NCBI GenBank assembly: GCA_015956445.1
Contig: WIUZ02000009.1
Coordinates: 1,302,001-1,366,000, forward strand
DNA length: 64,000 nucleotides
Reading direction: 5' to 3'
Source: Thelephora terrestris
Taxonomy: Eukaryota > Basidiomycota > Agaricomycetes > Thelephorales > Thelephoraceae
Shown: one piece after another, positions 28,515 through 53,687 of the stretch
Numbering within the stretch: the stretch's first letter is position 1
Layout: every line of letters begins with the position of its first letter
Made by a program: the position numbers and the translations under genes
Notes under the pieces: model-generated
Database searches by the model: none
Told to the model about the DNA's origin: nothing
Seen by the model: the letters and a program-made list of their open reading frames with translations, nothing else

Positions 28515-29374
28515 GACGGCCTGAGGAATCGTTGCCCCGTGCTCCAACAGGTTCTGATCGTAGATCCCTCGCACGAGGGTGTACCAGAGCTCCTTGATAG
28601 GATGCTCCAACTCCCCGAAACTACCCCTCATTTGATGGATCGTCTTCTCGGCGATCATAGACCGGACCCAGAGCTCATCGTCCCAGGTCAACCCCATCAA
28701 ATGTGGAATTGTCTCCCTGAGACATGCGGCGTCCACCTGCTGGACTATCTTCAAGATCTAGGGAAAGAGTTAGAACAAACAAAATAAGTTCAAACTCTCC
28801 CCCATACCTCTTCATCAGTGGTGTATGGAACCCCTGCCTCATTGGCATAGGTCTTGTGGGTGGCAGCACGACGGTCGATACGGGAGATGGTGGAGATCCC
28901 TTGAGCAACCTTGTAGGTATGGTTGTTGGGGAAAGACATGTTGGTGAGATGATGGGGAAGTTGCTGGTGTTGCTGATCAAGGATGGCTCCAAGAAGAGGT
29001 CCTTCTTATAGCCTAGATCGGTGATCCTTCATGTGACCTACCTCGATGCACCTCATTGGTCCGGGTCATATCAACTTCCGCCACTGTACTATCATCGTTG
29101 GCTTACTACATCAAGCTGACACCTCGGCCCACAGGACGGCCTTGGAAGAATTTCGTTCTGGAACGCCTAGAACACGCTGTCGTGACTGTCAGGAACATGG
29201 TATTTTTAAACTTTTTATAACACGCTCTTTCTTCGAACTCTTCTTACCATTTCTTATGTTTGAATGCTTCACACTCCTTATCCTTCCCACCCATCATTCA
29301 AACACACACACAACGCGCAATCCATTCACGGCAATACAAAACGACATGGCTATACTATGGCTATACAACGTCCT

Positions 29375-31109
29375 TCAGAAGTCGACTCTATCTATGGCAG
29401 GCCTCATGGTCATCAATGTTCCATCCCGGAGATCAAAGAACCGGCCCCTCCTCGCAAGGATCTCTCCGAACATGGCATCCCCGTCCTCCGCACTCAACTG
29501 AACGTCTAGTTCAAGTCGATACGAAGAGACTCCTTCGTAGGGACCCACCAGCCACCCAGATGTTACCGAACTTCTGAACACCTGGTCCCACATCTCCGTC
29601 ACCGGGTGACTGCTCAACAGCGCTGTCGACGTAGTCAAAGAGAGACCCTCCGTCTCCCTCATCGGAGGCCTGGGCGGGATCCTGTACTGTGAGTCGGGTG
29701 AGGTGCCTAAGCTGGACCTCCAACTCGACCTGTCGGTTGGGACGGTTGACCCGGTATCGGAAGGGTCATCCCTCATCTCAACCAGACTGGTCACCATCCG
29801 ACTCAACTGGACGAGGATAAGGGTAAGCCAAAGGTGCCATGCGATGGTCGTTACAGCGCCGAGAGCGTTTACAACACTGCCCCTTGATCACCGGACGTAC
29901 CTCGGCAACCCTCGGAGCATCTTTGGCCCGGTCCACGATCATGACCTCATCCTCGATCTTCACCAGCTGACTGATTGGCTGTAGTGGACAGCGCCAACAG
30001 TTCTCCTTGTCGGACTCGGCCAAAGTAGAAGCCGGAGCTGGAGTGGGGATAGGAGCCTCGTTCTCTACCGGAGGAGTGGCGTAGGACGACGGGTTAGGCG
30101 ATGGGAGTACCACCTCGTCGGCGTACTCTAACTCGAACGGAACATCGGCTGTCCCCTGCCCAACCAACACAGGACCTTCCTTGCAGTTGCAGGTCTTGTC
30201 CTGCAAAGACTCGACCTGCGCAGTCAACACGGACACCAGATCCTCGAGTTCATCAACCTAGGGAATGTCAACTTTTATCATTCGCAAAGAGAATGATGAA
30301 AGTCGCATACCCTGCTGCTTTCATCCCCAATCTTCTTTGAGTGCCTATCCAGGTGATCGTCTCTCGTATCCAAGGCACTGCGGATGTTGTTATCCCGAAC
30401 CTTCAGGCCGGCGATTAACTCTTGATGGTTGGCAACCATCGCTTCCAACGCCTCGTTCGTTCCCTGCTGGAAGGCGGCCATAGTCTCCTTCATCAGAAGA
30501 CCCTCGGTGGACAAACGAAGGACGTCTGCCTTCGCCTCCTTCACCTCACGCTCCAATCGTTCAACCTAGGCAGTTTGGTTAGTTGAGAGTCATACTCGAA
30601 TATCCAAATGGAAAACCTACCCGGCTTTCCCCCTCTCGAACAAGCAACCACAACAGCGTGGCGGAAGTGGTGGCATGGCGGATGGCCCGAGGAACGGTTG
30701 CCCCGTGCTCCAACAGGTCTTGATCATAGATACCCTGCTGCAGGGTGTACCAGAGCTCCTTCTTGGTGGGATGCTCCAATTTCCCGAACCTACCCCTCAT
30801 CTGGAAGATCACCTTCTTGGCGATCATAGACCGGACCCAGAGCTCATTGTCCCAGGTCAACCCCATCAAATGAGGAATTGTCTCCCTGAGACATTCGGCG
30901 TCCACCTGCTTGACGACCTCCAAGATCTATTGGGAAAGAGTTAGAAATAGCACAAAATTATTTCAAACTCCCCCCCACCTGTTCATCGGTGGTTTAGGGA
31001 ACCCCTGCCTCATTGGCATAGGTTTGCGGTTGGCGGCATGGTGGTCGATACAGGAGATGGTGGAGATCCCATTGGTGACTTTGTAGGTGTAGTTGTTTGG
31101 GAAAGACAT
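29375..31109 (-). pseudogene. UCC-B: coiled-coil gene of element B, frameshifted in exon 1
   Basis: Same exon order as UCC-D and no hairpin insertion, so it gives the empty-site sequence for hairpin 1. Exon 1 starts MSFPNNYTYKVTNGISTISC, but one base is missing after the CIDHHAANRK codons relative to A and D, which shifts the frame. Exon 2 has LTWDNELWVRSMIAKKVIFQ and exon 3 VERLEREVKEAKADVLRL. The last exon has LQDKTCNCKEGPVLVG, CWRCPLQPISQLVKIEDEVM and a final GDAMFGEILARRG. Unless a downstream start is used, this copy is inactive. Confidence 0.65.
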
Positions 31110-32006
31110 GTTGGTAAGATGATGGGGAAGTTGCTGGTGTTGCTGATCAAGGATAGCTCCAAGAAGGCGTCCTTCTTATAGCCTAGATCGGTGATCCTTC
31201 ACGTGACCTACCTTGACGAACCTCATTGGTCCGGGTCACATCAACTTCCGCCACTGTACCATCATCGTTGGCTTACTACATCAAGCTGATACTTCAGCCC
31301 ACGGGACGGCCTTGGAAGAACTTCGTTCCGGAACGCTTAGAACACGCGCGCACTAAAAATAGGTCTCATGACCTTGACGACCCCTTTATGAACCCCTTTA
31401 CGACCCTGATGACTTATTTATGATATCACGATAACGACCAACCCTGGACCCTGATCACACACGTGGATAGTCACATCACAGTCTCCTAACCGGAGGAAGG
31501 AATCACCATTATTTGGAAGGAGTGCCTTAGACTCTTTCTGGTTAGCCAAGTGAATGTGGAAGTAGCCGTTAGTGTGAAACACCGGCAAATCTGTAATCCC
31601 TCATGTCCCATGAGTCTAGGCCCGACCTCCTCATGTTCGGACGTACGTTGAGGTTGCCACTAGTCCGTGATGCTGTTACTACCTACAGACAACAAGGGAT
31701 GATGTATGGTCTCTATCTTTGGCCTCTCCAAAGGAAGCATCCAAGAAGATTCTCACCTGACCCTTGGGTGTGATCCCCAGGTACGAAATTTCATAACCTC
31801 ATGCCCCTTTTTCTTTTGGGACTAGAGTTATCTTTACCCCTATGTTTCATGCGGACATTCGTTATCTTTTATGCAATCCTTCACATGCTAGTAAGGCCCT
31901 TTGTCCTTTATTCTCCCACGCGTCATATTTGTTCGCTTCCCTTACTTAGCGTTCTCACGCTCCTTATCTCCCATTGTTCGGACTTGATAAGGGTATAGTA
32001 GGGTAT

Positions 32007-32037
32007 TGACGTCATGGCCACTCCTTTAGTATAAGTA
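32007..32037 (+). promoter_or_regulatory. CRE-like site and TATA box of element B's outward promoter
   Basis: TGACGTCA (32007-32014), the palindromic ATF/CREB site, lies 15 bp before TATAAGTA (32030-32037). The box is about 450 bp from the element end, where an LTR would have its U3/R border. The same arrangement is at 42490-42520 in element D. Confidence 0.55.
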
Positions 32038-32486
32038 GCAACTGTGGCTGTATCGTAGTACCTTAGTTTTGTTACCTCAGGAAATCCTCTGCCCTTCTCA
32101 GCCCAGTTGCAGTTAAGGACAAGTCAGAGTTTCTTGTTTGAACACAAGGCATCCCCCATCTACTCTCCCTCCTGCTCTGCGCGTCAACTGCGCCTTGAAA
32201 TTATAGAACCCCAGCGTTCACCTTATAGAATACCTCAAGTGTCCAGTTGATCAACTGGTGGAGTCATCAATCCTGCTGTAGGGATAAACCCTTGCTTGTT
32301 AAATTGAACGAAGTACGGTTTAGGTTGGGTTTCCCTTTAGGATTTCGACCTGACTTGTAGTGACCTCGGACAACCTACCGGAAGAATACAGATGTGATTG
32401 TTCTCTCACAAACTAGTTGGACTAGTGAGTACTCTGCGGAGTCGGCTCAGTGCACTGGTAGTTGTTGGGGTAGAGTGGCCCTGACA

Positions 32487-32913
32487 GTACCTTAGTTTTG
32501 TTACCTCAGGAAATCCTCTGCCCTTCTCAGCCCAGTTGCAGTTAAGGCCAAGTCAGAGTTTTCTGTTTGAACACAAAACACCACCATCTGCTCTCCCTCC
32601 TGCTCTGTGCGTCAACTGCGCCTTGTAACTATAGAACCTCAGTGTTTATCGTATAGAATACCTCAAGCGTCCAGTCGATCACCTGGTGGAGTCATCAATC
32701 CTGTTGTAGGGATAAACCCTTGCTTGATAAACCGAACAAAGTACAGTTTAGGTTGGGTTTCCCTTTAGGATTTTGACCTGAGTTGTAGTGACCTCAGATA
32801 ACCTACTGGAAGAATAGAGACATGACCATTCTCTCACAGCTAGTTGGACTAGTGAGTACTCTGCGGAGTCGGCTCAGTGCACTGGTAGTTGTTGGGGTAG
32901 AGTGGCCCTGACA
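32487..32913 (+). repeat. Second copy of the element end segment (R-U5-like)
   Basis: Direct repeat of about 32060-32486 beginning GTACCTTAGTTTTGTTACC and ending GGCCCTGACA, with around 93% identity by eye. It is read as the remaining right end of element A. It starts almost exactly where transcription from the upstream TATA box would begin. Confidence 0.7.
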
Positions 32914-32961: not shown

Positions 32962-33685
32962 CACTGGGGGCAAGGGGATACTTACCCAGAGGGTACATTG
33001 TGAGTACATTGTGAGTTTTGAAACCATTTGCCCAGCTGTTACCCACCAGGTACATGTTGGGTACTTTTTGAAAGATACCCATCAATTCGCCTGCATTTTA
33101 CCCACTGGGGACATGGTGGGTACTTTGTAAAAGTACCCACTCAGGAACCCAGTGGGTATTTTTTGAGTGAAACCCCTGGGTTCTTTCACAATTCACTTTC
33201 CAATGTGCCCATCACAAACCTGAGCCACTCATTGAGAATTCTTCCATAAAGTACCCACCAATCTGATCACAATGTACCCAGTGGGTTTTTTTTAAAGAAC
33301 TTACAAAGAACTCACAGTGTGGCTCAGTTTCATCACAAACTCTCAAAGAGCCCATTGAGTATCTGGTTGAGTACATTGTGATCAGATTGGTGGGTACTTT
33401 ATGAAAGAACTCTCAATGAGTGGCTCAGGTTTGTGATGGGCACATTGGAAAGTGAATTGTGAAAGAACCCAGGGGTTTCGCTCAAAAAATACCCACTGGG
33501 TTCCTGAGTGGGTACTTTTACAAAGTACCCACCATGTACCCAGTGGGTAAAATGCAGGTGAATTGATGGGTATCTTTCAAAAAGTACCCAACATGTACCT
33601 GGTGGGTAATGGCTGGGCAAATGGTTTCAAAACTCACAATGAACTCACAAGGTACCCACTGGGTAAGTACCCCTCACCCCCAGTG
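32962..33685. mobile_element. Hairpin 2: CACTA-like fold-back element (724 bp)
   Basis: Palindrome from CACTGGGGGCAAGGGGATA to its complement, flanked by a perfect 3-bp duplication TGT (32959-32961 and 33686-33688). It is the only one of the five that is not inside a UCC exon. Its left flank itself ends CCCCTTGTTGTCCCCAGTG, which looks like the right terminus of another, now lost, element of the family. Confidence 0.8.
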
Positions 33686-33688
33686 TGT

Positions 33689-34384
33689 CTTCTTGCTTTC
33701 CTCAGTGCCTTCCCCTTGTGTTCTCTGCTTCCCTTGTCAAATCTTCTCCCTGGAACTCTCAGAACCCTCAGAACTCTTTTGGAACTCTCGCGATCTCTCT
33801 GTTCTTCTTGCTTTGTCTCTAGCTCTCTTCTGGTCTCTCCACCTTCACACTTTCTTCGCAACTGTTCCCCAGTCACTGCTAGGAGTTCCTTGACACTGTA
33901 CAACCTAAAACCCACCTTCACAGGAACACTCTGGGCTCTGATCCTCTGTCCTCACGGAGGTTCCCCAGAAGATCCCCTGTTCACTGGGACATCGTAAATA
34001 CATTGTAAGGAAATGGAAAATGTGCCTGGCAATGACCCACCTGGTACATCATAAATATATTCAAAATGTCCAGGTCAATTTCCTTAGAGTGTTGCCAGCA
34101 CAGGAAATGCTCAGTACATTTATGGTGTTCCTGGTCATGTGATCTCAGTGTTCCCATTAGGTAATCCATGGGAACATCATGAATTTTCCCAAAGAAATAC
34201 CCATGATGTCCCTGAGTGGCTCATTGAAAGAAAACCCTGAGTGAACCCACAGTTGCCCAGGTCATGTGACCTTGATGTCCTGATTAGGTAATCTGAGGGT
34301 AAACCATGAATTTTCCCAAAGGAAGTAACCATGGTGTTCCTGAGTGGCTCATTTACAGTGTTCTTTCTGTCACGAACACGTGAC
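33689..34384. repeat. Repeat-derived spacer with fragments of a second hairpin family
   Basis: This 0.7 kb has no gene. The first part is CT-rich. The second part (from about 33978) is made of short ATTGT/CCCAGTG-like motifs. Its last 170 bp are almost identical, in inverted orientation, to sequence at 48541-48706. Confidence 0.5.
34196..34366 (+). repeat. Near-identical inverted copy of 48541-48706
   Basis: About 170 bp in which I see a single clear difference (CATTTACAG here against CATTCACAG in the reverse complement of the other copy). The match includes GGTCATGTGACCTTGATGTC and GAGTGGCTCATT. The high identity suggests recent movement or gene conversion. Confidence 0.75.
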
Positions 34385-35306
34385 TGTCAGGGCCACTCTT
34401 TGCCCTTCAGGTACCAGTGCTGTTGGTGAGTCGCAACTCCAACCAACAAGAAACAATGGGGCAAAGGGGGAACGACTTCCCTATATCCACCCAAAGTCTA
34501 CGTGGTCCAAAACGCGATGGACGAGCGTTCTCCGGTAGGTTGTCCGAATTCACAGCAGGAGTGCCGAGCCTCTATCTGACAAATCCCTATTGTCGTCTGA
34601 GGGCAGATGTAAGAGCCTGAGGATGGCGCCTCAAACTGTTGCTTGATCAAGAGAGCGACGAGGAACTCCTTTTCGTAAGCGCGTTCGCTGGTTCTTGATA
34701 CAAGGCTGAGAGAGAGAGGAGAGCGAACGTGTTCAAAGAGGTACTCGATAAGCTCTTCAGTGGCCTACACCAAATACACCGATGCTGCAAGGAGAAGAGG
34801 ACTTCCCGAGATATCAAAGATAGGGAATCCTCAGCTACTCTACTGGTACCTATATAGGAGAGTGGCCGGGACAGAGATAATCCTATCTAATAATAACTCG
34901 GAGCAAAGAAGGGCCGTGAGTAAGCCAGAACAGTAAGCGGCCCGGAATGTAGAATAGAAATAATAAAGGAATGACTAATGGGTCAGGTTTCGTGAGAGAA
35001 CAAGAAAGGGGTCATGATGTCGTGTGGGAAAGGAATGACAAAGAACAATATCACATGCGAAGACTGACCAATAAGAGGACGACGCATCAGCTCGTCTGAT
35101 CGAAATAACAAAAGACTGAGTGGGGCTCTAATGTCAAGACAAAGGTATGGAGGTCTGGACCAGTGAAACGATGGACTGATCCAATGGCGAATAGGGCGCG
35201 AGCACTTTCGGTGGTCGGATAAAGCATAGCGCGAACCGGCCGTTGGATCCATCAAACTCCCTTCTTCCCAAACCAACAATCCCACCAACCAACTACCCAT
35301 TCATCA

Positions 35307-38018
35307 TGCCCATGATCTCTGATCGTGTCTTCCGCGCTGAGAACAGTACCGCCACCATCGAGTCTGTGGATCCACGCTCCGTGCAGAACAAGGGTTACTT
35401 CCTGCCGAATGCCAACGTGGCGTACCCCAGTTACCGAGAGGTGCGACGTCACGTGTCGCCGTTTGTTGGCAACAACTGACATCGCAGTCATAGACCTTCA
35501 CGGCTGCCGATAAGGTGGATGCTCGTCAATTGGAGGCGACAATTGCCAAGCCTCCCAGCTACCTGACCATGGACGACGAGTTGTGGTATCACAACTTGAT
35601 CGACCACAAGCTGCAAGAGTCGATGCGGGGGGTGACGTTCAACACCGAGCTGTGCATGCCATGGGAGACTCCGGTGGCATCTGCGCTGTGGGGCCTTCTG
35701 CGGATGGGGATCTACGACCTAGGGAATGGCGAAGGAAGGTGGCCTGGAGCTACTCGCTCCCAACACTACACAGCCACCGTTGGTCACCGCCTTTGGTTCC
35801 TTTTGAGGACAGAACAGAAAGCGGTGAGTCGGTCTGTGCATCCCGCTTGTGGGATAACACTGATTGGCTTGTAGAACGAGTGGCTGAAACGCGAGGTGAA
35901 GGAAGCGAAGGACGATGCTCGCAGGATGTACTCGGAGGCGTTGGACACCAAGAAGACGCTCCTCCTGATGAATGATACACTTCGCGTGACGTTCGAGAGC
36001 GAGATGCTGGCGATGCGGGAGGAGCACAATCGGTTGGTCGAGTCGTTGAAGGAACGGGACGACACCATCCAGCGAGACCTGATTGAGGTTGATCGATGGC
36101 TCAACCGTCACAGAAGGGCGTTGAACGAATTGGACACCAAGGTCAGGGCGACTTCTCCTGGTCTTTAACCAAGAGAGCTCATGCCACTTCCAGGTTGATA
36201 CGTTGGACGATGCCTTGCCGTTGCTGGGCGCTCGGGTCGAGTCCATGAGTGAGCGGCTATGCCACTGTCGCACTCGTTCGCGATCAGTGGCAGCGGTTTG
36301 TGATGAGTCTGAGGACGAGTCGATTCCGGACAGGATGGCTTCCCCTATAGGTCGGGATGTCGGTTGACATGTTTGACTTGTCCGCTGACATTCCACTAGC
36401 CTCTGATGGTTCGTACCGTACACCGGCGCATACCGATGGTGGGGAGGAGGTCGTTCGTGAGACGTCCAAGGAGACGGCGGTTAACCCGGTTAGCAGTTTG
36501 CCCGAATTGGAGTATGCGGGGGAGAACGAGGTGGCACTGGGGGCAAGGGGTCAAATACCCAGTGGGTACATGCTGAATACATTGTGATCACAGTCAAAAA
36601 GTGATCACAATGTGCCCAGTGGGGGAAATTTGAATACATTCAAAATGTGGATGGCCATGTGAGTCCAATGTGCCCAGTGGGCACATTTTGATTGTGATCA
36701 CAATGTACCCATCAATGTGATCTCAATGTGCCCACTGGGGACATTTTGATTGCAATCACAATGTACACATCAATGTGATCTCAATGTGCCTGCTGTGCAC
36801 ATTTTGATTTCTTTCACAATATTCCCATCAATGTGTTCCCAATGTACCCAGCTCATTACATAATAGTTTCTTTCACAATGTTGTCCACAATGTGTCCAGC
36901 ATGTGGCTGAGCCACTCATTCAAAATTCTTTCACAAAGTACCCAGTGATGTGTCTAGAATGTGTACAGCCATACACATAATGATTTCTTTGAAAGTTCAT
37001 GATGAAATTGAACAATATTGAGATTACATTGTGATTACTTCAAAAAGAACCCCCTGGGGACATTATGGACACATCACTGGATAATCTTTGAAAGAATTTT
37101 GAATGAGTGGCTCAGGCACATACTGGACACATTGTGGACAACATTGTGAAAGAAACTATTATGTAATGAGCTGGGTACATTGGGAACACATTGATGGGAA
37201 TATTGTGAAAGAAATTAAAATGTGCACAGCAGGCACATTGAGATCACATTGATGTGTACATTGTGATTGCAATCAAAATGTCCCCAGTGGGCACATTGAG
37301 ATCACATTGATGGGTACATTGTGATCGCAATCAAAATTTGCCCACTGGACACATTGGGTTCACATGGCCAGGTACATTTTGAATGTATTCAAATTTTCCC
37401 CACTGGGCACATTGTGATCACTTTTTGACTGTGATCACAATGTATTCAGCATGTACCCACTGGGTATTTGACCCCTTGCCCCCAGTGTGGCCGTTCCGGT
37501 TCCGCCTCCTTCGATCTCTCCGGTGCATGGACAACGCTCCATTCGTGCCTGTCGATGGGTTCCTTACAACGGCGCTCGTCGTCCAGCCCATCGCATGTGT
37601 CCCAGTAATCCCAACGTCGTCCGACAGGGAGGAGACATCGAATCCACCGTCCTATTCCGACGCGACGATGTTACAGTGTCGCCTGGATCGTGGCGAGCTA
37701 ATCCCAGTGGAGTCCGTAGACGTGAACGGATTGACGAACCTTACACTCTTGTCGGTCCAGCGTGCAGTGGAGGCCATGCGCTTGGTGGCTCAACTGACCG
37801 AGAGAGTGGAGGGTTGGTCAGTCCAGAGGACTCAGGATCAGACTATGGTCGATTCAGCGAGGAACCGCCTTCGCGCCGAAGTTCAGCTAGCCGTAGCTCA
37901 TCGTCTGGAGGAAGCTCGGGTCATCGAGATGGTCGACGAGGAAGTTGTCGAGAGTGCCTCGGAGGGGACGGAGGAGGAGGTTGCCAGTGCTGAGGAGTAC
38001 TGGCAGACTAGGTCTTGA
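35307..38018 (+). CDS. UCC-C: divergent coiled-coil gene, split by a hairpin
   Basis: Exons 35307-35440, 35494-35823, 35875-36141 and 36194-36352; then after a 47-bp intron 36400-36534, the hairpin 36535-37487, and the remainder. It matches UCC-D in architecture: a short N-terminal exon; a globular exon with LTMDDELWYHNLIDHKLQES (compare LTWDDELWVRTIIAEKV); a coil exon with LKREVKEAKDDARRM and SLKERDDTI; then a C-x-C (LCHCRTR) and PELEYAGENEVA. Removing the hairpin and one TGG rejoins NEVA to VPVPPPSI in frame. Two frames overlap after that: one ends at 37993, the other at 38018, the latter with a helical acidic tail. Splicing there is unresolved. Function unknown. Confidence 0.6.
36535..37487. 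mobile_element. Hairpin 3: CACTA-like fold-back element (953 bp)
   Basis: Ends CACTGGGGGCAAGGGG and its complement, with a perfect TGG duplication (36532-36534 and 37488-37490). The arms are about 450 bp and nearly perfect. It closely resembles hairpin 4 and has the same length. It is inserted in a late exon of UCC-C. No transposase is encoded. Confidence 0.85.
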
Positions 38019-38872
38019 CGGCTAGAGTCGGTGCACGTTAGTTTCCGTTCATAGGGTCGGTGCGGATTCAACTCCGTTGGCCATTCGTCTTATGTCTTCG
38101 TCGCGGGTTCGCCCGCTTGTAATATCATCTGTGCCTTTGTCTGTGTCTCTTGATTGTCAGGCCGACGCGACCTCTACAGTTCAATAGCACTCTTGCTATC
38201 CAAACCTATCACGATCAGGGGTCAAACACACAGTTATAACCCTGTTGCAAACCCAGGGATATCGGAAGTCTCTTCACAGACTAGATTGGAGAAGAGGAGA
38301 AAGAAGGAGACAAGGGTCTTCAGGCACTCTTGCTCTAAGCACACAGCAGTAGAGGTCACGGAGAGTCTGATGATAACAAATCTAAGGAGTACAGGCTAAA
38401 CTACTCTGAGTATATATACTACTTAGATTTGTGACGTGACAGTGACATGTAACTACACTATGGATACAAACACAGACAAACATGGTCCGTGCACAGCACT
38501 GCATGGTCTGTGCGTTACGTGGTGACTAATGCTACAAATTATCAGCTGATAAACGAAAGTGTGGCGGCCAATAGCAATTTGAGAGCATTACAAAGCAGTT
38601 ACAAAGCATGACGTAGCCTGGGAATGTTCGGAAGGAATGTGGGTATGACTGACTAACAGCCAATGGCAAAAGGGGAGCATATGACTGTCAGGAACATGGT
38701 ATTTTTAAAATTTTTTATAACACGCTCTTTCTTCGAACTTTTCTTACCATCTCTTATGTTTGAATGCTTCACATTCCTTATCCTTCCCACCATTCATTCA
38801 AAAACACACAAACGCGCATACATTCAAGGCAATACGGAACAACATGGCTATACTAATGCTTATACAACGTCC

Positions 38873-41567
38873 TCAAAAGTCGACTCTATCTACGGCAGGC
38901 CTGAAGGTCATCAACTGTCCATCCCGGAGATCGTAGTGCTGGCCCCTCCTCGCAAGGACCTCCCCAAACATGGCGTCACCGTCTTCGGCACTCAGCTGAA
39001 CGACCAGTTCACACTGGGGACAAGGGCACAAATACCCAGTGGGTACATGCTGAACACATTGAGATTACAGTCAACAAGTGATCACAATGTGCCCAGTGGG
39101 GAAAATTTGAATACATTCAAAATGTGCCAGGCCATGTGTATCCAAGGTGCCCACTGGGCACATTTTGATTGTGATCACAATGTACTCAGCAATGTGATCT
39201 CAATGTGCCCAGTGGGGACATTTTGATTGCAATCACAATGTACCCACCAATGTGATCTCAATGTGCCCAGTGGGCACATTTTAAATTCTTTCACAAATTG
39301 CTCAGCAATGTGTTCACAATGTACCCAGCTCATTACATAATGGTTTCTTTTACAATGTTGTCCACAATGTGTCCAGCATGTGCCTGAGCCACTCATTCCA
39401 ACTTCTTTCACAAAGTACCCAGTGATGTGTCCATAATGTTCCCAGGGGGTACTTTTTGAAGTAATCACAATGTAATCACAATATTGTTCAATTTAACCAT
39501 GTATTCTCAAAGAAATCATCATGTATATGGCTGCACACATTATGTACACATCACTGGATACTTTGTGAAAGAAGTTTGAATGAGTGGCTCAGGCACATGC
39601 TGGACACATTGTAGACAACATTGTAAAAGAAACCATTATGTAATGAGCTGGGTACATTGTGAACACATTGCTGAGCACTTTGTGAAAGAATTTAAAATGT
39701 GCCCACTGGGCACATTGAGATCACATTGGTGGGTACATTGTGATTGCAATCAAAATGTCCCCACTGGGCACATTGAGATCACATTGCTGAGTACATTGTG
39801 ATCACAATCAAAATGTGCCCAGTGGGCACATTGGATACACATGGCCTGGCACATTTTGAATGTATTCAAATTTTCCCCACTGGGCACATTGTGATCACTT
39901 GTTGACTGTAATCTCAATGTGTTCAGCATGTACCCACTGGGTATTTGTGCCCTTGTCCCCAGTGTCAAGCTGATAGGAAGAGATGCCTTCGAGCGGACCG
40001 ATCAGCCTCCCAGATGTCACCGAACTGCTGAACACCTGGTCCCACATCTCCATCACTGGGTGACTGCTCGACAACACTATCGACGTAGTCGGCGAGCGAC
40101 CCTCCGTCTCCCTCATCGGACCCCTGGGTGGGATCCTGCCTTGCGAGGCGAAGCTGGTGTCGGAGCTGGATCTTGGACTCGACCTGTCGGTAAGGACGGT
40201 GGACCCGATATCGGAATCCTCGCTCCTCACCTCGACCAGAGAGGTCACCATCCGACTCAACTGGTCGAGGGTAAGGATTAGCCGACGCGGTCATACGATG
40301 AGCAGGACGGCGTCGAGAGCGCTTGCATCGTTGCCCCTTAGTCACCGGACGTACCTCGGCGACCCTCGGAGCATCTTCGGCTCGGTCAACCTCCATGACC
40401 TCATCCTCGATCTTCACCAACTGATGGATCGGCTGCAGGACGCAGCGCTCACAGTTCTCCTTGTCGGAAGCGGCCAGAGTAGAAGCTGGAGCCGGAGTAG
40501 GAACAGGAATCGCGTTCTCGATCGGAGGCGTCGCATAGGACGACGGGTTAGGAGATGGGAGTACCACCTCGTTGGCGTACTCCAACTCGAACGGGACATT
40601 GGCTGTCCCCTGACCAACCAATTTGGGACCCTCCTTACAGTTACAGGTCTTGTCCTGCAAGGACTCGACCTGCGCTGACAACACGGCCACTACGTTCTCG
40701 AGCTCTTCAGTCTAGAAGAAGTGTCAGCTTCCCTCATTTCGTCTTCGAGATGAGGAAAGCTACCTTTTCATCCCTCCTGGCCAACGCCCCCTTAATGTTG
40801 TTGTCCCGAACCTTCAACCCTGCGATCAACTCTTGATGGTTGGAGACCATTGCCTCCAACGCCTCGTTCGTTCCCTGTTGGAAGGCAGCCAAGGTCTCCT
40901 TCATTTGAAGACCCTCCGCTGATAGACGAAGGACGTCTGCCTTCGCTTCCTTTACCTCCCGCTCCAATCGTTCAACCTAGGCAGTCTGATTAGTCGAGAG
41001 TCATACTCGAATATTCAGACAGAAAACCTACCCGGCTTTCTCCCTCCCAAACGAGCGACCACAAAAGGCTAGTGGAAGCGGTAGCATGGCGGACGGCCCG
41101 AGGAACAGTCGCTCCGTGCTCCAATAGATCCTGATCGTAGATCCCCCTCTGAAGGGTGTACCAGAGCTCCTTCTTGATCGGATGCTCCAACTCCCCGAAC
41201 CTACCCCTCATCTGGAAGGCTACCTTCTCGGCGATGATCGTACGGACCCAGAGCTCATCGTCCCAGGTCAACCCCATCAAGTGTGGGATCGTCTTCCTGA
41301 GACGTTCGGCGTCCACTTCCGTGACGACCTCCAATATCTAGAAGCCGTTAGTTTGACATCAACACCAAAAGAATGTTCCTCTACCTAGAGGAAGGCGTTA
41401 GTGCGAACACACAAAGCTCTAGGTCTCCCCCATACCTGGTCATCAGTGGTATAAGGAGTCCCTGCCGCACAGGCGTAGGTCTTGCGAGCAGCGGCACGAC
41501 GGTCGATGCAAGAGATGGTAGAGATGCCGTTGGCGACTTTGTAGGTGTGGTTGTTTGGGAAAGACAT
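38873..41567 (-). CDS. UCC-D: most intact coiled-coil cargo gene, split by a hairpin
   Basis: Exons: 41436-41567 (MSFPNNHTYKVANGISTISC), 41032-41337 (LTWDDELWVRTIIAEKVAFQ .. GIYDQDLLEHGATVPRAVRH), 40764-40976 (VERLEREVKEAKADVLRL, an amphipathic coil with LIAGLKVRDNNI) and a last exon from 40711. The last exon has a further coil, TCNCKEGP, a Pro/Ser linker, a second Cys pair (CERC), VKIEDEVMEVDRAEDAPRV and an acidic C-terminus. Hairpin 4 lies in it; excision with one TCA rejoins SYQLEL to VVQLSAEDGDAMFGE and the frame ends at TGA 38873. Two frames overlap between about 40260 and 39970, so an additional intron is likely. No enzyme motif is visible. The C-x-C and C-x2-C pairs could bind zinc. 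Probably a multimerising protein. Confidence 0.6.
39012..39964. mobile_element. Hairpin 4: CACTA-like fold-back element (953 bp)
   Basis: Ends CACTGGGGACAAGGGC and its complement, with a perfect TCA duplication (39009-39011 and 39965-39967). The two arms of about 430 bp differ at only a handful of positions by eye. It is inserted in the last exon of UCC-D. A transcript through it would fold into a long double-stranded RNA. Confidence 0.87.
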
Positions 41568-41632
41568 GTTGGTGAGATGATGGGGAAGTTGCTGGTGTTG
41601 CTGATCAAGGATGGCTCCAAGAAGACGTCCTT

Positions 41633-41638
41633 CTTATA
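41633..41638 (-). promoter_or_regulatory. TATA box of UCC-D (conserved in UCC-A and UCC-B)
   Basis: TATAAG on the minus strand in the context GGCTATAAGAAGGACGTC lies about 65 bp upstream of the ATG. The same sequence precedes UCC-A (about 29005-29010) and UCC-B (about 31175-31180). Each cargo gene therefore brings its own promoter, directed against the element-end promoter. Confidence 0.6.
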
Positions 41639-42489
41639 GCCTAGATCGGTGATCCTTCACGTGACCTACCTCGACGAACCTCATTGGTCCGGGTCACATC
41701 AACTTCCGCCACTGTACCATCATTGTTGGCTTACTACATCAAGCTGACACCTCGGCCCGCGGGACGGCCTTGGAAGAACTTCGTTCCGGAACGCCTAGAA
41801 CACGCGCGCACTAAAAATAGGTCTCAAGACCCTGATGACCCCTTTATGACATCACGAACCCCTTTTTACAACCCCTCATGACTTTACGATTACGATCAAC
41901 CCTGGACCCTGGAACACACACGTGGGCACGGGGTATCAACATTTGGACACTGTGCTTCTAATCGGATAGTAACCCTATCTGATCTAGTTGTGCTTTGGAA
42001 GCAGAGTAGGCCCTAGCCGAGAACGGCGGCCGAAGAATATAATCCCTGGTGCCACTTAGGAAGAACGATATTCCCAGGTGCTATGCCTAATCAAGACTGG
42101 GTCTGATCAAGCGATTACGGTTGCAACTCCCAGGTTACTGCCTGTCCGTTGGTATCATACCACCTACCGACAACAAGGGATGTGTAGAGCTCCTTCGATC
42201 TCTAGCCAATCACAGAAGCTCAGAGACGGTGCTCACCTGACCCTTGGGTGTGGTCTAGACCCAGGTACGAACTTTCATGACCCCATGCCCCTTTTCTTTT
42301 AGGACTAGTGTTATCTTTACCCCTATGTTTCATGCGGACATGTCTTATCTTTTATGCAATCCTTCACACGCTAGTAAGGCCCTTTGTCTTTTATTCTCCC
42401 ACACGTCACCTTGTTCGCTTCCCTTACTTAGCGTTCTCACACTCCTTATCTCCCTTTGTTCTGGACTTGATAAGGGTATATTAGGGTAT

Positions 42490-42520
42490 TGACGTCATGG
42501 CCACTCCTTTAGTATAAGTA
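42490..42520 (+). promoter_or_regulatory. CRE-like site and TATA box of element D's outward promoter
   Basis: TGACGTCA at 42490-42497 and TATAAGTA at 42513-42520, about 450 bp before the element's right end. Identical spacing in element B argues for function. The palindromic TGACGTCA is the classical ATF/CREB target, so stress or cAMP signalling could act on it. Confidence 0.55.
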
Positions 42521-43067
42521 GCAACTGTGGCTGTATCGTAGTACCTTAGTTTTGTTACCTCAGGAAATCCTCTGCCCTTTTCAGCCCAGTTGCCGTTAAG
42601 GACAAGTCAGAGTTTCTTGTTTGATCCAAGACATCCCCATCTGCTCTCCCTCCCGCTCTGCACGTCAACTGCACCTCATAACTATAGACTCCCAGCAGTC
42701 ATATTAGAACACCTCGAGCGTCCAGTCGATCAACTGGTGGAGTCATCAATCCTGCTGTAGGGATCAACCCTTGCTTGTTAAACCGAATGATGTACGGTTT
42801 AGGTTGGGTTTCTCTTTAGGATTTCGACCTGACTTGTAGTGACCTCGGACAACCTACCGGAAGAATAGAGACGTGATCGTTCTCTCACAAGCTAGTTGGA
42901 CTAGTGAGTACTCTGCGGAGTCGGCTCAGTGCACTGGTAGTAGTTGGGGTAGAGTGGCCCTGACAATGACTAAGAAATAGGGGCATATGATGTCATGTGG
43001 GTCATGCGCAGTAAACAATAGAAATGATGACTCAACTCCTGAGTCGTGGAAGGGGCGTGGCATTTGG

Positions 43068-43074
43068 TATATAA
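43068..43074 (+). promoter_or_regulatory. TATA box of UCC-E
   Basis: TATATAA in GGTATATAACCAAAGG, 58 bp upstream of the UCC-E ATG at 43132. Confidence 0.6.
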
Positions 43075-43131
43075 CCAAAGGGGGTTGGATGACTGGTCTT
43101 CCAACAAACCTCCCTTTGTTACACAGCCAAC

Positions 43132-45342
43132 ATGCCTCGTGCCTCTACTTGTAATCCCACTCGTCACTCTTCCTCTTACTCTCCTGTTCAGGAGAACAAC
43201 TTCAATATTGACCGCTTCTCCCATGCTCGCCGCGATCCATCCCGCCCTTATCCTACTTTGGGAGCTGTTATGGACCGGACCGCCACCGCCGACCCTAATG
43301 AGGGGTTCTCTGATTTAGGTGGGGGCCCTGCTTGCGCATTCCGGTTTAGAAAACCAAGCTAACTCCTTTTGGGTTTCAGGGACTTCCTCCAAGCTGCTCG
43401 AAGGGTGTCTCGGCGCAAGTTGGCGCGCATCGAGACTAATCCTTATGCGGACGAACTCCTCAATAGGGGTGTTGAATTTGTGACTGAGGCCAACGAAACC
43501 TTCAACTCCGTGTTGGAGGCCAGCGTTCTCCATACGGGGAACGTTGGGTCCATGTTAATGGATGAAGTGGCTCATGTTAACGAGTGTATTGATGGTCGTC
43601 GTGAGGAGATAGAAGCCTTGGAGAATTGGAAAGAGGATATGCAGGGGGTCATTCATGGGCAGGAAGATAGCGTGGTTCGGCAGGGTGCCGACATCGATTT
43701 GTTGAAGGTAAGAAAGTTTGGGTCAGGAGTAATTGACCTTTCTAACTCAAACTTTCTTTTAGGGAGAGGTGACTACTCTCAAAGACCTGGTCCGGGCTCT
43801 GGTTACTAAAACCGGAGAATTGGAGGACGATAAGGTAACAGGTAGGGGTTGAAGGTTTTTGATATCTTCTAACCCTATTCGTTTTAGGTTCGCCTCACTC
43901 GTCGTGTCTCCAAGTTGACCGGAGAAATCCGGGATCTCCAACGGAGATGTAACAAGCCGGATGTCCGAGTCGAAGAAGAGGAAGGAGAGGAGGTTCTGTA
44001 TCGGGCCGGATCGCCGATAGTTCCTAATCGGGCCAAGTCGCCGCCCGCTTGTTTGTTGGTCCGTCACACTGGGGACAAGCCCCCACTTACTGACCAGATA
44101 CTTTTTGAATACATTGTAGTTCCATGTCCAATGTACTAACACTTTGCTGGGTGAGAACAAGGTGAGTTCTTTCGGAATGTACGGAACAATGTAACTACTA
44201 CTTTCCAGCTCAGCACATTGTGGAAACATTCAAAAAGGACCAAATCATGTGACCACAATGTCCCTGATTAGTAATCGTCCTGTACTTTTTGGTTGTCCCA
44301 AAGAAAGTGATCAACAAGTACCTGCGCTGCAAATTGTGGTTTCAATCAAAATTTACTGGGTCATGTGACTACAAAGTACCAAACTGGTGAATGCTGAGTA
44401 CTTCTGGAATGTCCTGAGCACATGTGTCCAAATTTTACCCGAGTGGCTCAAAGAAAATGTGATCACAAAGTACTGAGACTGAGTAAATCCTGAACACTTT
44501 TTGAAAGAAACCAAAATGTACTGAATTGTTTAAAAAGTACTGAGTGGCGATTCAGTACATTTTGGTTTCTTTCAAAAAGTGTTCAGGATTTACTCAGTCT
44601 CAGTACTTTGTGATCACATTTTCTTTGAGCCACTCGGGTAAAATTTGGACACATGTGCTCAGGACATTCCAGAAGTACTCAGCATTCACCAGTTTGGTAC
44701 TTTGTAGTCACATGACCCAGTAAATTTTGATTGAAACCACAATTTGCAGCGCAGGTACTTGTTGATCACTTTCTTTGGGACAACCAAAAAGTACAGGACG
44801 ATTACTAATCAGGGACATTGTGGTCACATGATTTAGTCCTTTTTGAATGTTTCCACAATGTACTGAGCTGGGAAGTAGTAGTTACATTGTTCAGTACATT
44901 ATGAAAGAACTCACCTTGTTCTCGCCCAGCAAAGTGTTAGTACATTGGACATGAAACTACAATGTATTCAAAAGTACCTGGTCAGTAAGTGGGGGCTTGT
45001 CCCCAGTGTCATGAGAACAGGTTAGTTCCCATCGACGATGAGGTCATTGAGATCGGGAGCGACGAATTCTATCAGAACGTAGGAGTCGTCCGCAGGGACA
45101 CTCCTCGTCCTGAGTTTGTGTCTACTCCTTGGGGTAGTCGTCGTCAATGGCCTGCTCTGGAGTATGACCCGTACGCCGAGTTCGTTCCTGATAGCGAACC
45201 GAACTCTGATACGGAGCTTCCAGATTACAATGATTTGTCGGACGTGGACCCGAACGAGATCCGGGAGCAGAACTGGGTGAACGAGGAGTTGGTGAGATCG
45301 GCATTGGAAGTAGTACAAAGGATCCGAAGAGATATTGATTAG
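43132..45342 (+). CDS. UCC-E: coiled-coil gene split by a hairpin
   Basis: Exons 43132-43318, 43380-43707, 43763-43834, 43888-44066, hairpin 44067-45008, then 45009/45012-45342. The N-terminus is Ser/Pro-rich (MPRASTCNPTRHSSSYSP). The second exon is a long helix (DELLNRGVEFVTEANETFNS .. REEIEALENWKEDMQGVIHG). The third and fourth continue the coil (LVRALVTKTGELEDDK, RRVSKLTGEIRDLQRR). Removing the hairpin and one TCA restores LLVRHENRLVPIDDEVIEIG in frame, where UCC-D has VKIEDEVMEV. The C-terminus is acidic and ends at TAG 45340. Apart from the hairpin no lesion is visible. Sequence identity to UCC-D is low; the link rests on architecture, exon pattern and the EDEV-like motif. Confidence 0.65.
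44067..45008. mobile_element. Hairpin 5: CACTA-like fold-back element (942 bp)
   Basis: Ends CACTGGGGACAAGCCCCC and its complement, with a perfect TCA duplication (44064-44066 and 45009-45011). The arms are long and nearly perfect, with the centre near 44535. Internal sequence differs clearly from hairpins 1-4 although termini and motif style are kept, so it represents another subfamily. Confidence 0.85.
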
Positions 45343-45927
45343 ATAACTCTTTTGTACTGTTGGCTTCCAATGAATCTTCTTTCTTGTCTATTGCGCGTGA
45401 TCCATGAGTCGTAGAGCATAATGGTTTTCATAAGTCCAATCCAAGGGTCAGATTAATAAGCCGGTTGACTTCTGCGAGAGGTCAGCGCGCGACGCTTATT
45501 AATACATCCCTTGTTGTCGGTAGCCTGAATATCTACTAGTCGTCCAGGGGCAATGGAGGGCCAGGTAGGGGGGATCTTCGTATGAAGATCCGCCGGTACA
45601 TGTTCACGTATTATACCTCAGGTCTTCTGGGGTATCTTGACTAGTAGCACGTTCCACGTATTGGACTTTGAGTCGTTAAGCATAGGGCATACTGCATAAT
45701 AAACAGTTTACCGCCGTGTTTAGGGCAGGGCACCAACTGACTTAGTGGTGATGAGGCGTTAAATAAAGGAAATAAAAAGGGGGTAAACGGCGAAATCATC
45801 ACATTGATGACGTGTGATTCGTGATAAGGGGAAGAGATAAGATAATAAAGGGGTATAGGTAAGGAAAGTGATCGAAAGTTGGGTGTGAAAATGGTTCAAA
45901 AAGAAGTTAAAATTCAGCACGCTGACA
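45343..45927. other. Spacer at the right edge of elements E/C
   Basis: 0.58 kb after UCC-E with no gene. It contains candidate element ends ATCACA+TTGAT (45798-45808) and CTGACA+GTGAC (45922-45932). AT-rich stretches near 45760-45860 could be termination signals for UCC-E. Confidence 0.4.
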
Positions 45928-46017
45928 GTGACATATTGACAAAGATCACGCAGGTCATTCAAGACGTTGGTCTTATTCGCAGCAATGGTAATAATACAAG
46001 GAGGAGCAAAGATAAGA

Positions 46018-49031: not shown

Positions 49032-52000
49032 CTACCTAGCCAATACATGACTAAAATCAAGAATCAACACATCAGTGGGCCCAAAGCACATGACTAAGTG
49101 CTGATCATCCCACTGCACATCGATAGGCTTTCTGAAGGACTTGGGCAGCTGAAAAACCACCCTTCCATTGACAACAACCTGGACCTGAGACTGAATGAAG
49201 TCCCATAGCATAGTGCCATTGGGGTGGAGTTTGCTTGGGGGTATGTTGGACAATTGGATAGGTGATGATCCTGGAATTCCAAAGTCCCACCCCTGGTATC
49301 CTGATTGGGGAGAACAAGCCCAGACCCTTGGGCCATCTGTGACTAAGGATCCTATACCCCTCATATAATCAATCTGTACTTCACCCAAAACTTTCCCTGT
49401 CATGATGGACCAAGCCTGAATGTGGTGGTAACCCAGACAGAAGATCTTGGATCCATCCCCTGCTATCTTAAGACTCTCAACCTCTGACCCAGATGGATTT
49501 GGTACCAGAATGAGTTCCTCTTCACTAGCACCATAAACACAGATTCTTTCCTCCACATCCCAAGCAAAGATTAACCTGCCATTGACAAATTGACCATCTC
49601 TTGTGCTGTTGCCTACAGCTGGAGTTTGGAAGGATGCCTTGCAGAGGCCAGTTGAGATATCCCAGATCCTCACTGTCCCATCTGAATCACTTGTGATAGT
49701 GATCCCATCTTTTGCTTGCAGAGTGGTGTGGACAACTTCATGTGAAGAGGAGGATATAGGATCCAGATTGGTTACAACTGACTCTGTTGATAAAATACCA
49801 ATCTGCCAGAATTTGACTGACTTATCATCAGATGCTGATATGAGAGAGGATGGAGAGGAAAATGCAAGGGCAGTGATGTCATCAGTGTGTCCAATGAATG
49901 TCTCAATGGGATGAGGGTCTGAGCTTGCAATGTCCCAAACATAGGCAGTTTTGTTAACAGCTGCAGCAATGAGCTTGCCATCAGGGGAGAAACAGCAGTA
50001 TTCAGGAGTGCCATCAGTTGCATGGACTTTTTTGATCTCTGCTCTTGATTCAACAGCTTGAACTTTGATAGTCCTTTCATTGCATAGAGCAAACTGTTTA
50101 CCATCCAAGGAGAGGGCAAAGCAATGACCATCATATGATGGTTCAATCTGGCAACCATTGATGTCCCAATGTAAAACTGTATCATTCCTAAGTCTGCTGA
50201 CAATCTGTTGGGGATCTGTTTGGGAGAAGCTGACTTGGTACACATGCTCCTGTTGCTCTATGACACAGTGGCACTCCCCTTTTGAAATGTTCCACAGATG
50301 AATTGTGTGATCAGAAGACCCTGAGGCAATGGTGGCAGAGTCTGCTGAGATGGAAACACTCCAAACCAAGCCTTGGTGACCAGAGAAGTCCTTGACAGTT
50401 CCACCAGTCTGTATATCCCAAAGCTTGACAATTGTGTCATCACCTCCAGATGCAAGCAGTTTCCCATCTGATGAGAAGGTGACAGAGTTAACCTCATCAG
50501 CATGTCCAGAAAGGGTTGCTGTGCAGCTACCAGTGATTGCATCCAGGATGATAATGTCTCCAGATTTCAAGCCAACTGCAATAGTGGCATCCCAGTGTGA
50601 GATTGTCAATGATCTGGAGCTAAGAGAAACTGTGCGAGAACATTTTCCCCATTCAGCTTGAAGTCCCTTGACCACCCTCACATCTTCTGACACAGTTCCA
50701 TAACATCCATAAAGCCATGATGAAGAAGGGCAGAATGGGAGGGCAAAAGAGTATATCTGGGAAGGGTTGTTATGAATTATGTCAAAGTGTTCCAGTAGAA
50801 AACGCTGGGTGTCATTTGCCCACTTCAGTGAGACTCCTGCCTGAATTTCCATCAACTAAAGTCTGGCAAATAGTCCAGACATTACTTACTGTAGCATACC
50901 ATTGCTCAACATCATTCATGGCATAAATCCCGACCTCAAGGCTCCTTGTCAGCACGAGGACTTCAATCCAATACAACAAATTTGTTGCAAAGAATCCATC
51001 AATTGCCTTCTGTACTTCCCCAACATATGGGCTGTCTCTAGGAATCTCCAGAAGGTGTTTTGACCAAAAGCAACATGCATATTCCAAAGCATCTCCAATG
51101 TTCTCCTTTTTTCGAGCAGAGAGATCTTTGAGCTCAGTGAGATCAATAAAATCATCCAAGTTGCAGATGTTCTTCTTCAACCTTTCCCTCATCAACTCCA
51201 GGCATAAAAGGAGAATTTCTGCATGGTGAACTTTGGGGTTTATGAAAAACCATTTGTCTTTGCATCGCTCTGGGTCTGTGAGGAAATCTGGGAATGACTT
51301 ATGGAAGGCCTGAATTGGATCCTCTGCTTTTTCTGGTACAAGGAGAAGGGAGTGGAGGGGGCGGATGGTAGTGGGGATATTGATTACTCTGAGGAGTTTG
51401 GATAACTCAGTTACAGAAAGGGGGTTAAACACAAGCAACACTGCTCCAACAACAGTTCTGAACTGGGAGTATGCCTTCTCCTTGTTCTTATTGCTGGCAA
51501 TGGCACAATCAATGGCTTGCTCAAGAATCTGGGTGTATAAAGGGTCAATTCCCTTTCCTTCTTCACTAAAGCTTTGTGGGAGTGAGGTGATTTGCTCCAG
51601 TTGTTCAGTAGGTGTGAAGCCTGTGGATGCCACATATTTGATGGCTGTTGAAGCGTAGATGAAGTAACCCGCTGCCTTTTTACAAAGGATTTCAATGTGG
51701 GATGGATTTGGCCAAGCTTGTGTGAAGTCACAATCACTCCGGTTTTTAGCAATTTCATTCAACCGTGTCCTAAAGAACAAGCTGAGGTCTTTGTCCACTA
51801 AGGAAGGTTCAACTTCGTGTAGCCTAAGGACTTCTGTGATTGGTTGGAGTGACTTGAGACGAAACCCTGATCGGATTGGAGGTTCAGGACGACCAGTGAT
51901 AAAGAACTTGACAGTGGGGATCTGTTTTACGTATCGGGAGAGGACAGAAAGGATGGCAGAGGCAGGTTGATCATCCTTGCATTCATCAAGGGCATCAATG

Positions 52001-53687
52001 ATGATGAGAGTGGAAATGGGGGTTGCTGTGAGGGGGCCAACAATGGCATCCTGCAACTGGGAACAGAGAGATTTGTGCCCAATGTCAGGATCAGCTCCCA
52101 GGACTTGGAGCAGTTGCTGTCGAAAGGAGGGGTACCGATATGCAAGTTGAAAGGCGAGAGTTGGAAAGATTGCTTGGATGTTGCTCCTGTTCTCAGAATC
52201 TCGAGAACAAAAGAAGCTTGCACCAAGCTTCCCTTCTGCAAAGGCAATCTCTGCAAAGGTCTGGGCAATGGTAGACTTGCCGGTTCCTGCCAGGCCGTTG
52301 AGCCAGAAGATGGGTTGGCTTTTCTTGTCCTCCATCCAATCTCCCAATTTTAGGAGAATGTCAGTCCTTGTACCCCCCAGACACCCCTGCCTGATCCCAG
52401 AAGAGTGTCCAGCATCAGGGGTGTGTCTCATGTTGTTCAGGAGGTTCCGATCCACAATTTCCTACTTCCAGGTTATACATAGCGTCAGCAACAAGAGAAT
52501 GATGCTCACAATAAGCTGGCAACTCTTGTAATAGATGTCTTGTTGCAACAAAGTCTGAAACAAGCATCAGCCATGGAAACTGAATTTCTTCACTTCACAA
52601 ACCTGGTAGTCCATCACTGCATCTCGGACATCTCCAACTACCCCCACAAGCTTATCTGCATTTGCAACATTGTTGAAAAACCCCTCAAATTTTCCTTGCT
52701 CCTTCAATGGCTCCAGTTCTTGAAGAACCTTGTTCAGCTTCCTAACAATCAGCAAATTGTCAGATTCAGATCTTGACCTCACAAAGGGTAGGCTTACTCT
52801 GTCAATTGTTCTCTTCTTTTTCGCTCTTTTACATCGCCCTCAGGAACGGGTTCACAGAGTTGTTCAGCAAGTGCCTTGACCCGTGGTGCCAGTGTTTCTA
52901 TGTCTTGAAGATTTGCATTTGTACGCTGGCAAACCCATAAGCATTGTGCATTGAGTACACAGGAGACAGGTCATACCTCGCAATTCTCAAGGATAAAGCA
53001 GAGACCCCCCGCAACTGACTTGAGGGGGCCAAAGGCATCTGCCGTGTCTCTCACCCCACGGAGAAGTAATTTGGCCGTGGCAGACGCGGTGGATTTCCAG
53101 TTTGATTTTTTCTCGCCTGTAACGGCGCCCGGTTCGGCGGCAACCCCGTGTTGAAGATCCTTCGGTGCGTGATCAGAAACGGGAGCAGGATCTAAATCGT
53201 TCACGGAAATGAGAGACCACAGCAGGAATATCGAAGTTCACATACCGTTGGATTGTGCGCTGTCCCGAATCGTGGTGTCCGATAAGGCTTGCTCAACCTT
53301 TCCACCGTGTCCAGTTGCTGCCACAGTCTCGACGCCTGGGCGCGGATACGAATGTGGAAGATGACTGATTTTGTTTTGACCAGCATCGATCTCTCCCTCG
53401 CCTTCTTCATTGGCTTTGCTCTCGAATATGGGGACAGTCTCTGATCCATCTTGTCGCGCAGGGCGGTCAGTCGAGCGGACGTGTTCTCCGACCGTACCAG
53501 GTCCGCTGGGTTCGAGATCACGGTCGCTGCCCCCTACAAAGGGGGACTCTGCTCGTGAAAGCGGTTCCTCCAAGTCAGCTCTCCCCTCGCCAGTGCCAAT
53601 GCGTTCCCCGTCCTGGTTACGTCTGCTTCGTTTGAAGGGACGCTTGATACGATTCTTCGCTCTGGACAAAGTCTCTCGGAAGCTCAT
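49032..53687 (-). CDS. STAND (NLR-like) receptor: N-terminal helical region, NACHT, WD40
   Basis: Fungal NOD-like receptor of about 1,400 residues; such proteins sense non-self or drive incompatibility and cell death. Exon 1 (53246-53687) is basic then acidic. Exon 2 (52977-53191) has LRGVRDTADAFGPLKSVAGG, typical of fungal NLR N-termini. A third segment (RTNANLQDIETLAPRV .. KLNKVLQELEPLKEQG) follows. Exons between about 52.7 and 52.4 kb are less certain. The NACHT part has Walker A LNGLAGTGKST, Walker B LIIIDALDEC and FFITGRPEPPI. A 49-bp intron (50841-50889) joins WYAT to AGVSLKWANDTQRFLLEHFD. The rest is at least six WD40-like repeats (LSGHADEVNSVTFSSDGKLL, GSSDHTIHLWNI, DDKSVKFWQIG), degenerate towards the end. 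The body from about 53.0 kb downstream is strikingly CpG-poor compared with exon 1. Confidence 0.88.

Follow-up and report, generated by a model that had tools for sequence, protein, structure and literature searches.

What kind of element has the ends and target-site duplication of a long terminal repeat (LTR), holds a multi-exon gene on its opposite strand and yet encodes no retroelement protein? The question is raised by a 64,000-nucleotide stretch of the Thelephora terrestris genome (contig WIUZ02000009.1, positions 1,302,001 to 1,366,000 of the forward strand; the whole of this stretch is called the window), in which such an element occupies 38686..42965. The element belongs to a Ty3/Gypsy chromovirus family of this fungus, here named family A, of which it is a solo LTR; the gene lies wholly in the U3 region of this LTR, antisense to the genomic RNA. 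It is very probable that the 3.3-kb LTR of this chromovirus carries a spliced gene kept by selection, whose product would be a coiled-coil accessory protein acting in trans. The boundaries and promoter parts in the window are the following:

38686..42965, plus strand: solo LTR of family A, ends TGTCAGG..CCTGACA, containing a nested 953-bp palindrome
38681..38685: target-site duplication ATGAC, left
42966..42970: target-site duplication ATGAC, right
42513..42518, plus strand: TATA box (TATAAG) of the sense LTR promoter, 453 bp from the right end
42547..42558, plus strand: inferred R start, reverse complement of the primer site just past the 5' LTR of the full-length element
41568..41767, minus strand: conserved block upstream of the antisense ATG, mean pairwise difference 1.4-2.1%
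41868..42267, no strand: hypervariable U3 block, mean pairwise difference 13-25% among all copies and 3.2% in the closest pairs

The terminal motifs and the perfect ATGAC duplication had been described in a first-pass annotation of the window and were confirmed at 38681-42970; of the span which it gave (38696..42965) the right end stands, and the left end is corrected to 38686. The TATA box was found where it had been placed, about 450 bp from the right end, and no retroelement proteins were seen among the frames inside 38686-42965, as had been reported. The object is hence a lone LTR with its own ATGAC duplication and no internal region, which is the structure of a solo LTR. It had been called giant, and this word holds only in part, as the 4.28 kb of the window copy includes the nested palindrome (~0.95 kb), while the family-A LTR unit measures ~3.3 kb.

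The check set beforehand as the deciding one was a pair of direct repeats around gag-pol. In the genome searched (40.6 Mb), where family A was recovered as a 3.3-kb repeat, such a pair is present in the full-length element C11:96420-109032, with two LTRs in the same orientation ~6 kb apart around gag-pol, 0 differences between them in 3324 aligned columns, and an outer duplication (ATCCT/ATCCT) bounding the whole element. The interior of 6017 bp contains a gag frame of 681 amino acids and a pol frame of 1322 amino acids, the latter ending 20 bp before the 3' LTR. In the one pol protein scanned, the domains follow as protease, RVT_1, RNase H, H2C2, rve and Chromo, the order of a Ty3/Gypsy chromovirus. 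The purine tract GGAAGAGGATAA precedes the 3' LTR in the one full-length copy read. The primer site starts 2 bases after the 5' LTR and is a 12-nt reverse complement of the LTR sequence that begins 34 nt downstream of the first TATA-box base. This complementarity matches self-priming of the Tf1 type, which would place the R start at ~42547 in the window. Since this match sets the start of R, the gene falls wholly in U3, as had been proposed, and its antisense orientation relative to the genomic RNA, earlier deduced from the introns, is borne out. The structure is certain.

The gene consists of five exons separated by four GT-AG introns, and a protein of 479 amino acids is predicted from intact copies. 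Its parts in the window are:

41436..41567, minus strand: exon 1, with the ATG at 41567 (NCBI models)
41032..41337, minus strand: exon 2
40764..40976, minus strand: exon 3, inside the long coiled coil
40355..40711, minus strand: exon 4
38873..40260, minus strand: exon 5 of the 479-amino-acid form, broken in the window copy by the palindrome 39012-39964
39965..40711, minus strand: alternative exon 4 with intron 4 retained, 465-amino-acid form (NCBI model P0001)

A spliced gene on the minus strand had been recognized correctly from the letters; the count of four exons fits only the form that retains intron 4, and as the sole form it is ruled out by the NCBI models and by codon patterns that show a fifth exon. 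Several of the NCBI ‘hypothetical proteins’ fetched are the five-exon form, and at least one keeps intron 4. The excess of changes at third codon positions extends through intron 4 into the exon 5 region, and the pattern suggests that both C-terminal forms may be coded over part of one stretch (dual coding). Over ~40355-39968 both frames, that of the retained intron and that of exon 5, appear constrained over part of the interval. Ahead of the antisense ATG, the conserved block at 41568..41767 hardly varies among family-A copies and is likely the antisense promoter together with the 5' untranslated region.

Selection on the gene was read from 35 complete copies drawn from 40 scored among 873 candidates, a sample that favours young, intact copies, from which copies shorter or longer than 3200-3345 bp, whether truncated or enlarged by big inserts, had been excluded before counting. 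All 35 keep the ATG and the four GT-AG introns with a net frameshift of 0, and the full 479-amino-acid frame is unbroken in 33 of them. In exons 1-4 the changes pile up at third codon positions and fall off at the exon borders, with mean pairwise differences of 0.030-0.049, 0.009-0.028 and 0.163-0.212 at the first, second and third positions, respectively. Part of exon 5 also shows the third-position excess, in its own frame. The ratio of nonsynonymous to synonymous rates (dN/dS) is 0.128 for all five exons (630 pairs). For exons 1-4 it is 0.083 over all 528 pairs and 0.075 in 15 non-overlapping closest pairs (33 distinct copies; 904 synonymous and 223 nonsynonymous changes). Exon 2 lacks stops in 147 of the best 150 among 600 candidate family-A matches, and both LTRs of a full-length element inserted very recently have the gene unbroken. 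Splice sites and codon patterns thus show a spliced gene in U3, and its predicted protein sequence is under strong purifying selection.

A second pattern concerns the silent sites, compared here with introns within the family-A LTRs themselves, apart from the ordinary genes of the fungus: divergence at synonymous sites is two to three times that of the introns. In 15 of the 15 closest pairs the divergence of fourfold-degenerate exon sites exceeds that of intron bodies (460/2319, 19.8%, vs 128/1894, 6.8%), and within these pairs it amounts to 1.7% for the 200 bp ahead of the ATG, 2.8% for the 3' end of the LTR and 3.2% for the hypervariable U3 block. Similarly, among all copies the fourfold sites reach 21.9% against 8.1-9.7% for introns. 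The gap between exons and introns persists when sites are split by context, at non-CpG G/C (11.9% vs 5.3%), A/T (17.2% vs 3.4%) and CpG (31.3% vs 23.3%). The distances of different LTR segments are nearly uncorrelated (rho -0.04 to 0.24), and therefore the copies are mosaics or the products of a star-like burst. A mutational cause that stops at splice sites is hard to imagine. Gene conversion templated by messenger RNA was considered as a cause and set aside; every intron is kept in 35 of 35 copies. One idea would be selection for silent change at the level of the messenger, as the exons have their exact complement in the genomic RNA.

The structure recurs throughout the genome. Searches with pol recovered eight family-A copies at 98-100% identity, one of them with a stop, and among the matches listed gene-bearing LTRs flank pol on both sides in four of the eight (C11, C4, C12:3233448 and C56). 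The shared termini and the 5-bp duplications, whose failure in other copies would have told against the LTR reading, hold well: the duplications are perfect in 34 of the 40 genomic copies with both ends located, and both C11 LTRs fall among the six without their own duplication, yet share ATCCT across the element. The exact right end, common to family A and the related family B described below, occurs 578 times and the exact left end of family A 406 times, with 0 occurrences of the reversed-pattern control in each case. Once 16 of these left ends are assigned to the eight full-length elements, 390 remain, a ratio of ~49:1, which is an estimate as truncated pieces are included and diverged ends are missed. 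Two family-A LTRs 40 kb apart (C59:640781-644106 and C59:681549-684871) differ by 0.03% and share the same left flank; they are probably a duplicated or rearranged segment, because a perfect duplication is present in just one. At C23:1034786-1048058, two family-A pol copies are separated by 9.3 kb, the combined length of an LTR and an interior, and this spacing suggests a tandem LTR-interior-LTR-interior array.

The proposed mechanism follows from the position of the gene. During reverse transcription U3 would be copied into both ends, and because of this each new insertion would receive two copies of the gene; recombination between LTRs would then leave one copy in the solo LTR. Both steps are strongly implied. 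The introns would escape removal, since in the genomic RNA they stand on the wrong strand for splicing, and the gene persists in solo LTRs because it lies in the LTR itself. That so many solo copies have retained it suggests that the element depends on the gene in some way. It presumably has its own promoter just upstream of the ATG, and its product is inferred to be a coiled-coil accessory protein with two alternative C-terminal forms, which would act in trans on the element family. Its likeliest role, put forward tentatively and by analogy with an antisense retroviral regulator, may be the control of the transcription or silencing of the family itself. A wider proposal, which must be held doubtful, would make the solo LTRs working gene units, hundreds of them producing the accessory protein in trans, so that the family is governed by its own leftovers while double-stranded or small RNAs derived from the exons select for silent changes. 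In that joint proposal the synonymous excess over introns would follow from selection on silent changes, since a perfect complement of the spliced message, exons only, is contained in the genomic RNA.

Several points weigh against an accessory protein maintained by selection. The gene is read from DNA, its transcript and protein being predictions, and the sampling leans toward young, intact copies as mentioned above. Selection may be confined to a few active source elements and not extend to the solo copies. Selection on exon 5 is clear only in part, because the exon as a whole lacks the third-position excess (0.052, 0.085 and 0.088). A Pfam scan of the U3 proteins gave no family above the cut-off, and the AlphaFold model of the family-A protein is confident only in a long coiled-coil core (~residues 141-240 of the model) and poor outside it, with a mean predicted local distance difference test score of 48. 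The role of the protein is a guess for these two reasons. Likewise, a sequence search of solved structures with the family-A protein gave a best E of only 0.056.

The alternative that survives best, although it is improbable, is that the genes serve the host, so that the LTRs spread a beneficial or domesticated family and selection acts on the use of solo copies by the fungus. It would account for the stop-free state of exon 2 and for the strong purifying selection seen in the closest pairs, and many copies are annotated by NCBI as ordinary hypothetical proteins. Set against it are the intact gene in both LTRs of the very recent insertion and the fact that the whole LTR multiplies, not the gene alone. 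Three protein searches, which find only relatives sharing exact words, showed no homologue in any other named species; they brought out no single-copy relative in the host and no host copy outside the elements, their matches being unsorted by LTR context and copies outside LTRs not exhaustively sought. For the same reason, the suggestion in the first-pass annotation that the gene had been captured from a host is unsupported.

Far less probable is a selfish drive or toxin-antidote gene that rides on the LTRs with two overlapping products. The wtf genes of fission yeast evolve fast, whereas the family-A protein is strongly conserved. In the part of the source drawn on (PMC7175516), wtf genes are multi-exon drive genes flanked by Tf LTRs, with no evidence of mobility; they resemble family A as fungal multi-exon open reading frames associated with LTRs, but they are flanked by LTRs and not inside them. 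The two alternative C-terminal forms, seemingly coded over one stretch, would suit such a gene, and a drive function here is purely conjectural.

It is more improbable still that constraint on LTR DNA or RNA, and not a protein gene, accounts for the open frame. The reading of the gene from sequence and the lack of an overall third-position excess in exon 5 would agree with this; the third-position changes of exons 1-4, their drop at exon borders, the absence of net frameshifts in 35 copies and a nonsynonymous/synonymous rate ratio of 0.03-0.13 argue against it. Least credible is a DNA transposon, or the new class of TG..CA element once envisaged, which the mostly single copies with 5-bp duplications and no enzyme genes might recall, since for family A it is refuted by the identical direct repeats around gag-pol with their matching outer duplications, purine tract and primer site, and is left as a reading for family C (below) only.

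An LTR carrying a selected antisense gene in U3 has partial parallels in known systems. Antisense accessory open reading frames between pol and the 3' LTR are described, in the portion of the source covered, for maize Grande (gene23), rice RIRE2, Silene Retand and Botrytis Boty, with roles called unknown, an own promoter and a nuclear location reported for the Grande frame, and double-stranded RNA named as a possible consequence (PMC7264820). As far as that portion describes them, elements of the Grande type share with family A a conserved antisense protein-coding gene with no known homologues. Their frame lies between pol and the 3' LTR, whereas the family-A gene lies inside U3, has four introns, comes in two copies per insertion and survives in solo LTRs. 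Tf1/sushi elements, in the passages used, likewise combine a Gypsy gag-pol with complementarity between the primer site and the RNA 5' end, over the first 11 bases in Tf1 against 12 nt, seen at the sequence level, in family A (PMC4600332, PMC7175516). By this complementarity family A would share the self-priming of the Tf1/sushi group, a placement made on that trait and not on a pol tree. Its gene-bearing LTRs of 3.3 kb are far longer than those of Tf1, which measure a few hundred bp.

Retroviruses provide further comparisons. The superantigen gene of mouse mammary tumour virus shares the U3 location; it is a coding gene in sense orientation, expressed from a spliced proviral message, and thus opposite to the antisense gene of family A. 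HBZ of human T-lymphotropic virus 1 (HTLV-1) is a spliced leucine-zipper regulator located mostly outside the LTR. In the parts of the sources consulted, an antisense promoter in the 3' LTR is named for HBZ (PMC7264820) and an antisense gene is claimed in the U3-R regions of the LTR of human immunodeficiency virus 1 (HIV-1) (PMC1654176). Antisense transcription from the LTR region is, within those parts, the likeness of HTLV-1 and HIV-1 to family A, claimed apart from any sequence relation; unlike them, family A has an entire multi-exon gene inside U3. The literature on genes inside LTRs and antisense open reading frames, and that on the species, Boty and self-priming, covered mostly at the level of listings and with few subscription journals, yielded no description of fungal LTRs that contain a spliced gene. 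The portion of the T. terrestris genome paper covered makes no mention of LTR genes (PMC7550596), and a paper on captured open reading frames yielded, in its part covered, one antisense match, which is unrelated (PMC5408684).

The window copy does not stand alone, as it lies within two further LTR families with genes of their own:

34385..45927, minus strand: solo LTR of family B between GTGAC duplications (34380-34384 / 45928-45932), with the family C LTR nested in it
35306 (ATG) to 38018 (last frame end), plus strand: homologous antisense gene of family B, broken by the palindrome 36535-37487
38155..45803, minus strand: LTR of family C between TTGAT duplications (38150-38154 / 45804-45808), with the family A LTR nested in it
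43132 to about 45342, plus strand: multi-exon gene of family C, broken by the palindrome 44067-45008; exon 1 border provisional

Hence B (GTGAC) is split by C (TTGAT), C by A (ATGAC), and A by a palindrome. Family B is the sister family of A: its three pol copies, at 61-62% identity to family A (one with a stop), are each flanked on both sides by LTRs bearing the homologous antisense gene, exon 2 of which was located on either side of all three. Between the predicted A and B proteins hhalign gives E 1e-19 at 38% identity, which marks them as homologues. The family B gene in the window and its C12 copy, the one pair compared over the first four exons, show a dS of 0.945 and a dN of 0.028, and 11 of the best 150 of 568 candidates for the family B exon list contain a stop. 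The C12 family B element adjoins a WD40-like frame (L049 2852-4501). The family C gene has at least 150 genomic matches, with a stop in 2 of the best 150 of 237 candidates, and is probably antisense to a TATA-like site near 38410, on which the orientation of this LTR rests. Homology of the family C protein to A or B was not accepted (E 0.005 and 0.03), and its AlphaFold model is poor apart from a coiled coil. No parent element of family C was found, one candidate pair at C4 being empty and the listed reverse transcriptases, judged by eye, matching no C pair.

The palindrome inside family A belongs to a group of smaller inserts:

39012..39964, no strand: nested palindromic (foldback) insert, CACTGGGG termini, TCA duplication 39009-39011 / 39965-39967

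Its arms of ~430 nt are 98% complementary, and it sits inside the last exon of the U3 gene. Foldback elements with CACTGGGG ends, ~0.7-0.95 kb long and presumably CACTA-like, occupy 36535-37487, 39012-39964 and 44067-45008, and also 26787-27597 and 32962-33685. The three checked have 3-bp duplications (TGG, TCA and TCA) and each lies within an LTR-borne gene; TCACACTGGGGACAAG occurs 24 times in the genome, against 0 for the control. Elsewhere in the window, 26012-32913 is a second family-A-like LTR (duplication TCCTC), 80-90% like the window family-A LTR in most aligned pieces, which encloses another nearly complete one at 29187-32486 whose own flanks, GTGAC / GTACC, mismatch. Minus-strand frames at 49032-52461 contain, as named by eye, WD40-type repeats and a stretch like a NACHT nucleoside triphosphatase.

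The usual view sees LTRs as regulatory ends and takes solo LTRs for debris. However, T. terrestris has at least two related families in which the LTR itself bears a spliced, selected gene that would be doubled with each insertion and left behind after deletion to one LTR. Many ‘hypothetical proteins’ of this fungus are accordingly the contents of LTRs. The families offer a natural case for studying what antisense retroelement genes do, and the excess of silent over intron change poses a concrete question on sequence-specific silencing.

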